From Halorubrum sp. PV6 (lineage in GTDB: Archaea; Halobacteriota; Halobacteria; Halobacteriales; Haloferacaceae), in NCBI RefSeq assembly GCF_003990725.2, contig NZ_CP030064.1, positions 1,674,001 to 1,738,000 of the forward strand: DNA of 64,000 nt, read 5' to 3'. Position 1 is the first letter of the stretch; each line of letters begins with the position of its first letter. Both the position numbers and the translations under genes were made by a program. The notes beneath the pieces are model-generated. The model had not been told where the DNA came from. It searched no databases and saw nothing but the letters and a program-made list of their open reading frames with translations. Below, piece after piece: positions 36,468-42,842 of the stretch.

Positions 36468-37391
36468 CTACTCCGAGAAGTCCGTGAGTGAACCGGTGCG
36501 ATCGGAATCGGTCTGGTCGTCGGCGTCGGCGTCGTCGTCGGCGTCGTCGTCGGCGTCGTCGGCGTCGTCGTCGGCGTCGGCGGCGTCGTCGTCGGCGTCG
36601 TCAGGGGAGCCACGTTCGGTACCGGTCGAGGGCTCGCCCCACGGATTATCGGGATCGACCGGTTCGACCGCACGGTCGAGGTCGGCGGGCGAGTAGTCGG
36701 TCTCGTCGTCGAGGCGCATCGCGAGGCGCTGCCAGCGAGCGCTCTGCTCGTCTTCGCCCTCCGGCCCGACCCGCCCGCCGTGGGTTTTGAAGAAGTGCGT
36801 GCCGCGGTCGCGGCGCGCGCCCTCGCCGGTGTGCCCGTCGAAGACCGCATCGTAGGGGCCCTCCGGTTCGAGGTCGCCGACGGGGAAGTCGTGGGCTGGC
36901 TCCTCGCCGCGCTCGCGGGCCTCGGCGCGCACCTCGGCGACGGCGGAGAAGTAGGCGTCGGCGTTCGACGCCTCGCGGGTCGAGCGAGCGCGGGCCGCCG
37001 CCAGCGCGGCGTGGATCGCACAGAGCCGCCCCTTCCACTCGGCAGGGTCCCAGCGCTCGGTGGCGAGTTCCTCGTAGCGCTCGATCGTCAGCGCGACCTC
37101 GCTGCCGGCCCGGAGGTCCTCGACGACGTAGAGGTTCAGACGGTCCCAGAGGTTCCACGCGTAGCCGGAGCGGGCCAGTTCCCAGGCGGCCCACGCCGCG
37201 ATCTCCTCGTCGGAGCGGCGGACCGCCTTCTGGAGGAGACTGGAGACGACGTACCGGCTGTACCCGCCGTCCGTCTCGTTCGGCTCCTTTGACTCTCCGA
37301 AGTCGTTCTCGCCGGTCGCGTCCGGCGTCGTGTCGGTCTCTAAGCTGCCGTCGGACCCGAACGTCGCCTGTCTGTCGTCGCCGTCGGCCAT
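36468..37391 (-). CDS. RarA/MgsA C-terminal-like protein with acidic tail
   Basis: 307 residues. SRYVVSSLLQKAVRRSDEEI then AAWAAWELARSGYAWNLWDR and LNLYVVEDL resemble the helical C-terminal oligomerisation region of RarA/MgsA clamp-associated ATPases, but there is no AAA+ domain. The last 40 residues are almost only Asp and Ala, encoded by a GTC-rich repeat tract (36516-36600). ATG 37391 is chosen; upstream codons are not protein-like. A link to replication-fork maintenance is a guess from this resemblance. Confidence 0.6.
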   Translation of the reverse strand: MADGDDRQATFGSDGSLETDTTPDATGENDFGESKEPNETDGGYSRYVVSSLLQKAVRRSDEEIAAWAAWELARSGYAWNLWDRLNLYVVEDLRAGSEVALTIERYEELATERWDPAEWKGRLCAIHAALAAARARSTREASNADAYFSAVAEVRAEARERGEEPAHDFPVGDLEPEGPYDAVFDGHTGEGARRDRGTHFFKTHGGRVGPEGEDEQSARWQRLAMRLDDETDYSPADLDRAVEPVDPDNPWGEPSTGTERGSPDDADDDAADADDDADDADDDADDDADADDQTDSDRTGSLTDFSE

Positions 37392-37556
37392 GCCCCTCGC
37401 TCCCGCCGCGAGCGACTTAACAACCACGTGTGGGGTCTCGCTGCCCGCGGAGCCCGCGTCCCGGCCGGGTCGTGGGATCTGGACCCCCGAGAACCCGACG
37501 CACACTCGCGTTGAAAGGGAACCCTTAAGTCCGATCCGGCGGCTAGAATTCGGTAA

Positions 37557-37630
37557 CCGCCCTTAGCTCAGCCTGGTAGAGCAGTCGACTGTAGATCGAC
37601 TTGTCCCCCGTTCAATTCGGGGAGGGCGGA
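37557..37630 (+). tRNA. tRNA-Tyr (GUA)
   Basis: The acceptor stem CCGCCCT pairs with AGGGCGG, discriminator A. D arm is GCTC/GAGC, anticodon stem GTCGA/TCGAC with loop CTGTAGA (anticodon GTA), and T arm CCCCG/CGGGG with loop TTCAATT. There is no intron and no encoded CCA. A run of seven T residues follows at 37634-37640 and could terminate transcription. Confidence 0.95.
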
Positions 37631-37900
37631 CTGTTTTTTTAGTTGATTGGTAGTCGACTGTAGATCGAGTTGTCCCCCGTCCTCGTGAGCGAAGCGAACG
37701 AGGGCTCGGAAGGCGCGCGCAGCGAAGCGAGCACGTCTTCCGGCGTTCAATTCGGGGAGGGCGGACTGTTTTTTTAGTTGATTGGTAGTCGACTGTAGAT
37801 CGAGTTGTCCCCCGTCCTCGTGAGCGAAGCGAACGAGGGCTCGGAAGGCGCGCGCAGCGAAGCGAGCACGTCTTCCGGCGTTCAATTCGGGGAGGGCGGA
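37631..37900 (+). repeat. Two identical 135-bp tandem repeats carrying the 3' half of tRNA-Tyr
   Basis: Copies 37631-37765 and 37766-37900 are identical by eye. Each begins with the T-run, repeats the tRNA anticodon arm (GTCGACTGTAGATCGA), and ends in the tRNA T loop and acceptor strand (TTCAATTCGGGGAGGGCGGA). The 5' half of the tRNA is missing. About 65 bases are inserted in the T stem, able to form two hairpins (CCTCGT/ACGAGG and GGAAG/CTTCC). Sites like this usually record integration at a tRNA gene, here repeated twice; an RNA role is also possible. Confidence 0.85.
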
Positions 37901-38059
37901 CTTCTGTTGTGAACACCGTGAGCAGTCAGGAGTCCCACTAGTGGCTTGACTTCTCTCCTGTTCCCGTGACTGGAGTAGATGGGAGACAACGAGCCCACCG
38001 CGCACGGATATCACCGTCAACTCTGCTTGGTCCCCACGACGCATGTTTTATAACCAACT
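37901..38059. other. Intergenic region between tRNA repeats and cassette iii
   Basis: No gene is seen. TTTTATAAC (38046-38054) is TATA-like, and the last eight bases (38052-38059) are the left copy of the presumed target duplication of cassette iii. Confidence 0.4.
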
Positions 38060-39663: not shown

Positions 39664-39671
39664 GTTTAATA
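39664..39671 (+). promoter_or_regulatory. TATA box of the 39695-42842 operon
   Basis: TTTAATAT, 24-31 bases before ATG 39695, in an A+T-rich patch (39640-39694). It implies one leaderless transcript for all five genes, whose junctions overlap. Confidence 0.6.
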
Positions 39672-39694
39672 TCTACTATGATAAATGATTAAGA

Positions 39695-40216
39695 ATGTCC
39701 GTAGGACAAGAACTACTTGACGTACCGTTCCCTGAGATGGTGGCCAGCATGGGCCAGGGGATCGCGGACGCACAGAACCAGTTAGACATGAACTCGGTCG
39801 AAGTGGCGAAGACGCTCGCGGAGACAGAGATCGAGGTCGTTCCCGCGATCACACGAACGATCGACTCAAGCGGCGAGGTTACGTACTCCTCGGCGGACGC
39901 GATCGACGTCTCGTTGCTGCAAGCGGGTCTGTTCCCGACGTTCTATCAGTTCTCGGAAGCCATCATCGAGGTTGAGATGGACATCAAAACGACCACCGAG
40001 CGAGAGACGAACATCGATGTCAGCGCCAAGGCGCACGCCGGGTTCGGCCTGTGGGGCGGCAGCATCCAGACCGACGTGAGCCACAACCGCAAGTTCGGGA
40101 AGGAGGTCCACGGGACGAGCAAGTTGAAGACGACGATGGTTCCGGTTCCGGCCCCGCCGTACCTCTTCCCTGAAGTCGAAACCGTCGACAACCGCACCAC
40201 TGCGACCGAAGAGTGA
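39695..40216 (+). CDS. Operon protein 1 of an undescribed five-gene set
   Basis: 173 residues, no signal or membrane helix. N-terminal helix PFPEMVASMGQGIADAQ is followed by a long helix, EVVPAITRTID, a strand-rich part with FYQFSEAIIEVEMDI, a Gly-rich segment FGLWGGSIQTDVSHNRKFG, and a Pro-rich end VPVPAPPYLFPEV. The same order of motifs occurs in operon proteins 2 and 3. It weakly recalls DUF2589-type proteins, but I cannot place it. It is probably a beta-rich cytoplasmic structural subunit. Confidence 0.75.
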   Translation: MSVGQELLDVPFPEMVASMGQGIADAQNQLDMNSVEVAKTLAETEIEVVPAITRTIDSSGEVTYSSADAIDVSLLQAGLFPTFYQFSEAIIEVEMDIKTTTERETNIDVSAKAHAGFGLWGGSIQTDVSHNRKFGKEVHGTSKLKTTMVPVPAPPYLFPEVETVDNRTTATEE

Positions 40217-40827
40217 GCGATCCGGCCGCACCGACCGGCGACGAGGGCCGCGACCGCGCTCTCGACGCCCGTACCACCCCACCGACACAGCCAATGCCAC
40301 TACGAGCACATCACCGCACGCCGCCAAGTACCGCCCTCCGACGACCGACGCAGACGGTCGCGGACGTTCCGTTCGACGACCTCGTGTTTCTGTTGGCGGC
40401 GGGCGTCGCCGACGCGCAGACCGCACTCGACGCACACACCGCTGAGACGGTCCGGTCTCTCGCAGCGACCGACGTCGAGGTCGTCCCGTCCGTGACGAAG
40501 ACGATAGACGCCGACGGCACCGTCAGTACGGACGCCGCGCCCGCAGAGCGCCGTTCGCTGCTCGAACTCGGCTTCTCGCCGGCTCACTATCGGTTCAGCG
40601 ACGCGACGGTCGAAGTCGAGGTCGACGTGAGCGTGACCGAGGGGCCGGGCGACGAGACCGCGGAGTTCAGCGCGGACACGAAGTCGGTGATCGACCGCCG
40701 TCGGTTCGACCGGCGCGCCGACGCGAACGCGCGAGTGGTCGCGCGGCTCGAACCCACGCCGCTCCCCGTTCGGGCGGACGCGTCGCAAGCGGCGGGCGAC
40801 GCCAGCGGAGGCGACCGTGCCGACTGA
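40213..40827 (+). CDS. Operon protein 2, paralogue of protein 1
   Basis: 204 residues from GTG 40213, which overlaps the previous stop (GTGA); ATG 40294 is an alternative start. PFDDLVFLLAAGVADAQ, EVVPSVTKTID and HYRFSDATVEVEVDV align with protein 1 (PFPEMVASMGQGIADAQ, EVVPAITRTID, FYQFSEAIIEVEMDI). The N-terminal 45 residues are a disordered Thr/Arg/Pro extension and the C-terminus an Asp/Ala-rich tail. It lacks the Gly-rich segment of protein 1. Confidence 0.72.
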   Translation: MSDPAAPTGDEGRDRALDARTTPPTQPMPLRAHHRTPPSTALRRPTQTVADVPFDDLVFLLAAGVADAQTALDAHTAETVRSLAATDVEVVPSVTKTIDADGTVSTDAAPAERRSLLELGFSPAHYRFSDATVEVEVDVSVTEGPGDETAEFSADTKSVIDRRRFDRRADANARVVARLEPTPLPVRADASQAAGDASGGDRAD

Positions 40828-41209
40828 CGAGTGGCTCGCGCGACCGCTGTCGGAGTTCGTCCGCTCGGTCGCGTTCGCGGTCGCCGAGGGACAGGAAGAG
40901 CTGGACCGTCGCTCGATGGCCACACAGCGAGCGCTCGAACGCGACGCCGAGAACGGCGACCTCCCGTATGACCTTGACGCGTCCTGGCTCCGTTTCGCCG
41001 ACGTCGAGGCCGACTTGGAGCTGACGCTGTCCATCGAGGGCGAGGAGATCCGGGATCCGGAGACGAACGCGGTACGGGGGTACAAACCCGTCGTGAGCGC
41101 GCTTCCGCTCAATCGCCGGGCCGTCGACGAGTACGACATCGACGCCGAAATCGCGAGCGAGGTGCGGCTCAAGATCGCACCCGTACCGCCGGCGACCCGT
41201 CGCCCATGA
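40817..41209 (+). CDS. Operon protein 3, shorter paralogue
   Basis: 130 residues from GTG 40817, overlapping gene 2 by 11 bases. PLSEFVRSVAFAVAEGQ and WLRFADVEADLELTL correspond to the shared helix and strand of proteins 1 and 2; the EVVP segment is replaced. It ends LKIAPVPPATRRP, with the same Pro-rich closing strand as protein 1 (VPVPAPP). Soluble, no known domain. Confidence 0.72.
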   Translation: MPTDEWLARPLSEFVRSVAFAVAEGQEELDRRSMATQRALERDAENGDLPYDLDASWLRFADVEADLELTLSIEGEEIRDPETNAVRGYKPVVSALPLNRRAVDEYDIDAEIASEVRLKIAPVPPATRRP

Positions 41210-42504
41210 GCGACCGATTCGTCGCCGGAGGCGACTTCTCTCGGATCGCGGAGACGTTCCAACTGACGGAGCTGCCGCAGGTCGACGTCGAGAAGTTCGA
41301 CACGGTAGAGCGCGCCGCGGTCGAGCGCGTGATCACCGAACAGCAGGAGTCGCTCGCCCGGCTCCAGAGCAACGTGCTCGACGTTCGCGCCGAGCGCGAC
41401 GCGCTCGATCACCGCCTCTCGACGCTGATCGACGACCGCGACCGGCTGCAGGACCGCGTGCGAGAGCTGGAGGCCGAACGGCCCGCGCTGGAGCCGAAGG
41501 CGGTCTTCGCGAACCTCGGCGCGGCGCTGGAGGCGGCCGACGACGACCTCTCGACCGAGCGCTACCGCGTCGACGACGTCGACTTCACGCTGAAGGCGAA
41601 CCTGACCCAGACCGAGGACGGGGTTCGGATGCACCTCCCCTCGTTGGACGAGTCGTCGGTCGCCGCGAACCTCAGCGAGGTCTCCTTCCGGATGCGGGCG
41701 CCGCGCGAGCGCGAGGAGCGCCCCGAGGCGGAGTACGTGGACGTGCCGGACGTGCGCGGGCAGTCCCGCGAGGTCGCGGCGCGCCGGCTCGCCGGTGCCG
41801 GCCTCAGCGTCGGGACGGTCGAGCAGGTGGCCGACCCGACGGCTGCGCCCGGTTCCGTCGTGGAGCAGTTCCCGGACGCGTACGCGGTCGCCGAGCCGGA
41901 CGCGCCGGTCGACCTCCTCGTCGCCGAGGCGGGTGAGGCGCCGGCTGACGAAGAGACGCCGGCAGGCAAGGAGGCGCCGGCTGACGAAGAGACGACCGAC
42001 GCGCCGGCTGACGACGAGACGCCGGCAGACGACGAGACGCCGGCCGAGTCGACAGACGCCCCGGCTGCCGACGGCGAAGCCGAGACCCGGACCGATCGCG
42101 GCGAAGACGAGACGGCGCGCATGGAGGCGTTCCGCCGGGCGATCGTCGCCGTCGCCCCGGAGGTCGGGCCAGCCGTCGCGGACAGGCTCCAGCGGGCCGG
42201 CGTCACGGACCTCGAATCGCTGTTGCGGTTCGACGCCGACGAACTCGCCGAGCGGCTGTCGATCCCGGCCGAACAGATCGTCGCGTTACAGCGGCGGCTC
42301 GAATCGGTCGCCGAGGAGCGATCGCTCGAATCGATCTCCGGAATCGGTCCGACGTACGCGGAGCGGCTCCGAGACGAGGGGGTCGAGACCGTCGCCGACC
42401 TCGCGACGCTCGACCCGGAGACCGTCTCGGCGATCACGCGGGCCTCGACGAGCCGGACCGAAGGCTGGATCAAGCAGGCGCGGCAGGTGACGGCGGAGCG
42501 ATGA
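41206..42504 (+). CDS. Operon protein 4: coiled coil, shared strand motif, PASTA-like and helix-hairpin-helix domains
   Basis: 432 residues, ATGA overlap with gene 3. In order: a coiled coil (about 45-95); YRVDDVDFTLKANL (about 121-134), which resembles the strand motif of proteins 1-3; a PASTA-like repeat (about 185-245, VPDVRGQSREVAARRLAGAG); an acidic linker with repeats of PADEETPA (about 247-300); and two helix-hairpin-helix regions (about 305-370 and 378-428, ISGIGPTYAERLRDEGV). PASTA is normally an extracellular peptidoglycan-binding repeat, but this protein has no signal or membrane helix. The hairpins suggest DNA or protein binding. It looks like the scaffold of the set. Confidence 0.82.
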   Translation: MSDRFVAGGDFSRIAETFQLTELPQVDVEKFDTVERAAVERVITEQQESLARLQSNVLDVRAERDALDHRLSTLIDDRDRLQDRVRELEAERPALEPKAVFANLGAALEAADDDLSTERYRVDDVDFTLKANLTQTEDGVRMHLPSLDESSVAANLSEVSFRMRAPREREERPEAEYVDVPDVRGQSREVAARRLAGAGLSVGTVEQVADPTAAPGSVVEQFPDAYAVAEPDAPVDLLVAEAGEAPADEETPAGKEAPADEETTDAPADDETPADDETPAESTDAPAADGEAETRTDRGEDETARMEAFRRAIVAVAPEVGPAVADRLQRAGVTDLESLLRFDADELAERLSIPAEQIVALQRRLESVAEERSLESISGIGPTYAERLRDEGVETVADLATLDPETVSAITRASTSRTEGWIKQARQVTAER

Positions 42505-42842
42505 GCGACGACGGGAGGGCGGGGGCCAACGCGGATCCGAAGAGCATCGTGGAGCGGTTCGGCGCGTCGGTCGACATCACCGGGCCGGACCCCGACGCGG
42601 ACGGGTTCTTCTTCGTGAAGCGTCCGGCGGCCGTCGACCACGACGCGTTCGTCACCGGCCTTCTGGGGGTGATCGGCGCCACCGACCGACTCGTCGTTCA
42701 CCACCGGTCCGGGTTCGCCATCGTCCGGGTCTCACACGGGCTCGCGGGGCGGCTCCGGGCGTTCTCGTGGATCGACACCGTCGGCGCCGTGCAGTTCGAT
42801 CCGACGCAGTTCGCGGCTGTGACCGGTGCTCCGGTCGAGTGA
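42501..42842 (+). CDS. Operon protein 5, small soluble protein
   Basis: 113 residues, ATGA overlap with gene 4. An acidic N-terminus is followed by an alpha/beta fold with KSIVERFGASVDITG, GFFFVKRPAAVDHDAFVTGL and LVVHHRSGFAIVRVSHGLAG. No family is recognised. It ends the operon; the next gene has its own TATA box. Confidence 0.75.
   Translation: MSDDGRAGANADPKSIVERFGASVDITGPDPDADGFFFVKRPAAVDHDAFVTGLLGVIGATDRLVVHHRSGFAIVRVSHGLAGRLRAFSWIDTVGAVQFDPTQFAAVTGAPVE

Follow-up and report, generated by a model that had tools for sequence, protein, structure and literature searches.

We analysed a stretch of 64,000 nucleotides from Halorubrum sp. PV6 (NZ_CP030064.1, positions 1,674,001 to 1,738,000; hereafter the window), in which five genes on the forward strand at 39695-42842 had been read from the letters alone as an undescribed operon. 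We refer to the five genes as a cassette and to their products as P1 to P5. The genes and the element in front of them are listed below (aa, amino acids; HHH, helix-hairpin-helix).

39665-39672 (+): TATA-like element TTTAATAT, 23-30 bases 5' of the first ATG, read from the sequence
39695-40216 (+): gene 1, P1, 173 aa; DUF2589-related module and best-conserved subunit, with archaeal and bacterial orthologues
40294-40827 (+): gene 2, P2, 177 aa from the ATG at 40294; second copy of the module, by hhalign to P1
40817-41209 (+): gene 3, P3, 130 aa; third copy of the module, by hhalign to P1 and P2
41206-42504 (+): gene 4, P4, 432 aa; coiled coil, beta-module, PASTA domain and HHH pair
42501-42842 (+): gene 5, P5, 113 aa; small separate protein

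The original prediction described joined genes behind one TATA box, and most of this arrangement was retained. Genes 2 and 3 overlap by 11 bases, genes 3/4 and 4/5 are linked by ATGA joins, and TTTAATAT is a candidate promoter that may give a nearly leaderless transcript. However, the GTGA join between genes 1 and 2 relied on a start that is not conserved. The P2 homologues begin with MPLRAHH or MPIRPSDL at the position of the window ATG 40294, and the GTG at 40213 is not conserved among them; therefore, gene 2 probably starts at ATG 40294 and the GTGA overlap is probably spurious, which leaves a 77-base gap between genes 1 and 2.

Synonymous divergence (dS) exceeded nonsynonymous divergence (dN) for all five genes in all comparisons with relatives, most strongly in gene 1 (dN 0.06-0.14, dS 0.5-1.1), indicating that all five are real coding genes; the substitution estimates show them to be under purifying selection. 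P1 was the slowest evolving, whereas P4 reached dN values of 0.28-0.57 at similar dS. Hydropathy analysis of P1-P5 found no signal-peptide-like stretch, in agreement with the original prediction, and no transmembrane-like stretch was found either. Pfam, NCBIfam and PHROG scans detected no enzyme among the five proteins, and P1 had no match over the cut-off in any of these collections.

A repeated module related to DUF2589

A helix and a strand common to proteins 1-3 had been proposed, and profile-profile comparison with hhalign supported this far beyond chance. P1 and P2 were aligned with an E-value (E) of 1.5e-44 (reversed-profile control 0.17), P2 and P3 with 1.4e-14 (control 0.06), and P1 and P3 with 1.8e-11 (control 0.001). 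At this level of comparison, P1, P2 and P3 are shown to be paralogues of one domain, predicted to consist of a long N-terminal helix, a beta-meander or sheet and a long hairpin. In P1, the helix and hairpin lie as follows (pLDDT, predicted local distance difference test score).

39728-39823 (+): predicted long N-terminal helix, P1 residues 12-43, AlphaFold2 pLDDT about 79-88
39941-40147 (+): predicted long beta-hairpin, P1 residues 83-151, with alternating hydrophobic and polar residues and a Gly/Trp tip, AlphaFold2

In the AlphaFold2 model (mean pLDDT 69), the helix is followed by the meander and by strands 83-110 and 125-151, and the model is least confident at the hairpin tip (residues 101-135, pLDDT below 50). 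The alternation of hydrophobic and polar residues had a p value of about 0.0006-0.01 on strand 1 of the hairpin and was not significant for residues 132-151. No solved fold was matched by P1 (best Foldseek E 0.54, VIA Z at most 3.4), and no solved structure matched the P1/P2 profile or the DUF2589 profile in sequence. Comparison with a viral structure library brought up an unnamed protein as one moderate match (E 1e-4, TM about 0.43).

When P1 was compared with DUF2589 proteins from archaea and bacteria, hhalign returned a probability of 96.6% (E 6.4e-10; reversed control 0.009), and the alignment was colinear and full-length, spanning P1 columns 1-135. No window protein reached the Pfam cut-off for DUF2589 (PF11655), and the best of 45 relatives, P2 of Pseudanabaena, scored 21.8 bits against a cut-off of 23. 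Therefore, we regard P1 as a remote relative of DUF2589 and not as a member of PF11655. In two unrelated records, an N-acetylmuramidase is encoded near bacterial DUF2589 pairs (L136:144-4015 and L081:7089-11371).

P4, a proposed organiser, and P5

P4 contains four recognisable parts.

41302-41478 (+): coiled coil, P4 residues 33-91, a single long predicted helix with pLDDT about 78-93
41494-41697 (+): conserved P4 core, residues 97-164, a helix and four strands, from hhalign
41737-41925 (+): PASTA domain, residues 178-240, from Pfam PF03793 and model comparison
42160-42492 (+): two HHH units (DUF4332/HHH_5), residues 319-429, from Pfam and model comparison

The coiled coil, the PASTA repeat and the two HHH regions had all been read beforehand, and the Pfam matches and the structure model agree with that reading. 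The PASTA domain scored 41.1 bits against a PF03793 cut-off of 23.2, and its model matched 3py9 with a VIA Z of 12.8 and a root-mean-square deviation (rmsd) of 1.5 over 66 residues. HHH_5 scored 57.5 bits against a gathering score of 27, and the model of residues 372-432 matched RadA (1pzn_A; VIA Z 11.3, rmsd 1.8 over 60 residues). P4 has no transmembrane segment (maximum 19-residue hydropathy 0.81), and phmmer found no sequence relative of it among solved structures.

P4 had also been thought to repeat the strand of proteins 1-3. Compared directly, the P4 core and the P1 module gave no significant match (E about 0.05-0.07). The window P4 core matched bacterial P4 (hhalign E 2.6e-6), and a chain of comparisons runs from the P4 core to bacterial P3 (E 6.5e-6), from bacterial P3 to methanogen P3 (E 7.5e-8) and from methanogen P3 to P1 (E 7.6e-17). 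Thus, the claim is supported indirectly, and the P4 core may carry the P1-P3 module by homology through bacterial P3.

The P4s scanned differed in their number of PASTA copies: bacterial P4s had none, window P4 has one, methanogen P4s had 1-4, and a methanogen paralogue of 1324 aa had 12. HHH was found in no bacterial P4 scanned and was missing from most methanogen P4s scanned; one methanogen P4 contains it, and in Pontiellaceae both PASTA and HHH sit on P3. Because PASTA number varies from 0 to 12 and HHH occurs in some lineages only, domain content shows both to be accessories of the cassette. The 1324-aa paralogue (L156:8053-12024, reverse strand) adjoins a normal cassette and had no kinase or penicillin-binding protein (PBP) domain match. 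P5 was present in nearly all cassettes with enough flanking DNA, and methanogen P5 is related to haloarchaeal and bacterial P5 (hhalign E 3.3e-7).

Distribution, gene order and transfer

P1 was detected in 10 of 194 Halobacteria genomes (about 5%), and a broader profile was positive in 36 of 393 genomes of the phylum. A scan of the genome collection yielded 30 loci in haloarchaea, Methanohalarchaeum, Chlorobi (Chlorobium), Cyanobacteria (Pseudanabaena, Coleofasciculus), Chloroflexi, Clostridia, Proteobacteria, Pontiellaceae and others. Many bacterial loci are metagenome bins, for which single assignments may err; this does not apply to the plasmid and isolate records. One Chloroflexi bin was the only one of the 251 genomes of its phylum with the cassette. 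P1 of the aligned bacterial and methanogen loci is 54-69% identical to window P1. On a Sphaerotilus plasmid, the five genes follow one another directly, each annotated 'hypothetical protein'. The largest group outside Halobacteria (family f12), probably Methanosarcinaceae (Methanosarcinales), has a four-gene form, P1-P3-P4-P5, which in several genomes adjoins apparent ribosomal L3, L4, L23 and L2 genes (identified by eye).

Wherever the flanks were sufficient, the four or five components lay side by side in all but a few cases, whether in haloarchaea, methanogens or bacteria, in line with the original view of diverged module copies accompanied by a multi-domain partner. The gene order was 1-2-3-4-5 or 3-4-5-1-2 in haloarchaea, 5-1-2-3-4 in bacteria, and 1-3-4-5 or, once, 5-1-3-4 in methanogens, most of which lack P2. 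All of these are rotations of the cycle 1-2-3-4-5, a pattern that is unlikely by chance because rotations make up 5 of the 120 possible five-gene orders; a circular intermediate or tandem duplication followed by loss could explain it. A joint tree of the P1 and P2 proteins placed the P1s in one clade (branch 100/100), indicating that the P1/P2 split is older than the spread of the cassette. At least three changes are needed to account for the archaeal rows in this tree, and the bacterial phyla are intermingled.

Loss of the cluster in nearly all relatives had been named as an outcome that would speak against the prediction, and within Halobacteria this is literally what the survey shows; nonetheless, the same set recurs in distant lineages. 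Therefore, we regard the cassette as an accessory, transferred unit and not as an accidental gene cluster. In Halorubrum, a variable slot beside a conserved universal-stress-type gene holds the cassette in 8 of the 30 genomes inspected and other genes otherwise. Among the bacterial flanks read, no functional neighbour was constant. A phage origin was rejected, as P1 was unmatched in the phage records and viral contigs searched. The open-access literature searched on DUF2589, Trypco2 and PASTA in haloarchaea or Methanosarcina contained no description of the cassette.

In Halobaculum litoreum (L078:7001-7547), P1 is apparently split between frames, and only a 126-aa open reading frame matching its second half was found. 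Upstream of the cassette in the window, a DNA repeat at 37563-38044 encodes repeated peptide units in several frames. The neighbouring gene at 36468-37505 (reverse strand) has a very Asp/Ala-rich, low-complexity C-terminal region, and in other Halorubrum loci relatives of this gene occur close to the cassette.

A possible cytoplasmic assembly, its rivals and known systems

We propose that the self-contained cassette may encode a cytoplasmic hetero-oligomer of paralogous subunits, a reading for and against which we consider the balance to be about even. P1 would use its helix and long hairpin to build the repeating body of a ring, tube or sheet, in which P2 and P3 would take specialised positions. 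P4 would multimerise by its coiled coil, dock by its core and bind a ligand or partner with a projecting, variable arm (0-12 PASTA domains, HHH in some cases), and P5 would act as a cap or assembly factor. We favour the hetero-oligomer because P1, P2 and P3 are homologous, the components are co-inherited, P1 evolves most slowly and the arm of P4 is variable; the homology between P1 and DUF2589 and the lack of any enzyme, transmembrane segment or signal peptide in the window proteins point the same way. Several points weigh against it: the P1 model is only moderately confident, particularly at its tip, and matched no solved fold; the link between the P4 core and the P1 module is transitive only; and a shared operon and module would also fit proteins that act in sequence and never form one particle.

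It is unlikely that the cassette is a biological-conflict (defence) system, in which the modules would serve as Trypco2-like adaptors between sensor and effector and the whole unit would be mobile in the manner of defence genes. One bacterial P4 core was the sole genome-wide Trypco2 (PF19631) match (E 8e-4, 21.0 bits, below the cut-off of 24.2), and four members of A8 gave weak matches; however, the profile comparison was not significant (E 0.05-0.6), and the window genome had no Trypco2 match. The patchy distribution, the cross-phylum mixing in the tree and the plasmid copy would suit a mobile defence unit, whereas the position of the methanogen form beside ribosomal-protein genes in several genomes is housekeeping-like. 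In Pseudanabaena (L062:3831-7126), two genes that read as von Willebrand factor A (vWA)-like, one with an OmpA domain, lie directly 3' of the cassette and have no vWA Pfam match. In one methanogen (L164:2741-9861), genes for an AAA ATPase, a DUF4332/HHH protein and an ADP-ribosylglycohydrolase occur close to a P1-like gene, possibly as a variant system. However, the cassette itself contains no effector, peptidase or nucleoside triphosphatase, and no defence neighbour was consistent in the flanks read. PADLOC returned PASTA-driven PD-T4-6 hits over P4 only and a chance-level coiled-coil hit (E 0.38). A known anti-phage defence system was rejected, as the matches in PADLOC-DB were PASTA-driven only.

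A membrane-acting assembly, in which the amphipathic hairpins of P1 and DUF2589 would pair into a transmembrane or membrane-bound beta-barrel, is improbable. The long P1 hairpin with strong alternation on strand 1, the tip pattern KAKxGWGPxS common to bacterial DUF2589 and one methanogen P1, and the N-acetylmuramidase near two bacterial DUF2589 loci would be compatible with such a barrel, and the weak structural look-alikes of P1 include pore hairpins of channel-formers such as aerolysin (VIA Z 2.4-3.2). However, VIA Z values below 4 are at noise level according to the tool's own note, model confidence is lowest at the hairpin tip, and residues 132-151 lack significant alternation. In addition, the window proteins have no signal peptide, no muramidase was seen next to this cassette, and haloarchaea are not known to have peptidoglycan.

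The original prediction had also raised a possible association with DNA; in such a complex, the HHH domains of P4 would bind DNA and the modules would form a chromosome scaffold. The P4 HHH_5 pair resembles RadA/NusA-type HHH, and HHH is also encoded by the third gene in certain DUF2589 cassettes and found in one methanogen P4. However, HHH is missing from the bacterial P4s scanned and from most of the methanogen ones, and lies on P3 in Pontiellaceae; therefore, DNA binding does not appear to be a core property. HHH mediates protein contacts too, and the idea, thus weakened, seems to us quite unlikely. That the operon encodes small regulators or chaperones acting separately, with no common particle, is very improbable, given that paralogous subunits are kept together across domains of life in a rotated but cyclically conserved order.

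Returning to the hetero-oligomer, we tentatively suggest, at somewhat less than even confidence, that the cassette encodes an undescribed cytoplasmic machine common to archaea and bacteria. It would combine three to four subunits of the DUF2589 type with a coiled-coil PASTA organiser of adjustable arm length and a small fifth protein, and gene transfer would have spread it while the gene order rotated but stayed cyclically the same. The analysis places proteins for which neither Pfam nor NCBIfam has a dedicated model in an evolutionary context, ties them to DUF2589 and indicates a conserved use of PASTA domains within archaeal cells. As copies occur in Halorubrum and in probable Methanosarcina relatives, deletion mutants of laboratory archaea could serve to test the function.

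Among known systems, DUF2589 genes resemble the cassette in forming tandem copies, as P1 and P2 (and P3) here and as gene pairs elsewhere. In another haloarchaeal cassette, a pair of true DUF2589 genes is followed by a larger third gene, which in some cases encodes HHH, and by a small fourth one; the third genes scanned yielded no PASTA, unlike window P4, and the fourth protein is unrelated to P5 by profile comparison. The DUF2589-related AF0414-AF0417 of Archaeoglobus fulgidus are reported to be up-regulated on lactate (PMC3949148); this was the single mention of DUF2589 in the open-access literature searched, which contained no other expression lead. Trypco2, which Kaur et al. 2020 (PMC7159879) describe as working with trypsin-like peptidases in conflict systems of the MoxR/vWA type, shares a pattern of a short helix followed by a beta-hairpin; however, the cassette contains no trypsin, MoxR or complete vWA set, and none recurs in the flanks read. 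Finally, P4 shares the true PASTA fold with PknB/PrkC kinases and PBPs, whereas it lacks their transmembrane and kinase parts, is archaeal and predicted to be cytoplasmic, and carries between 0 and 12 repeats.

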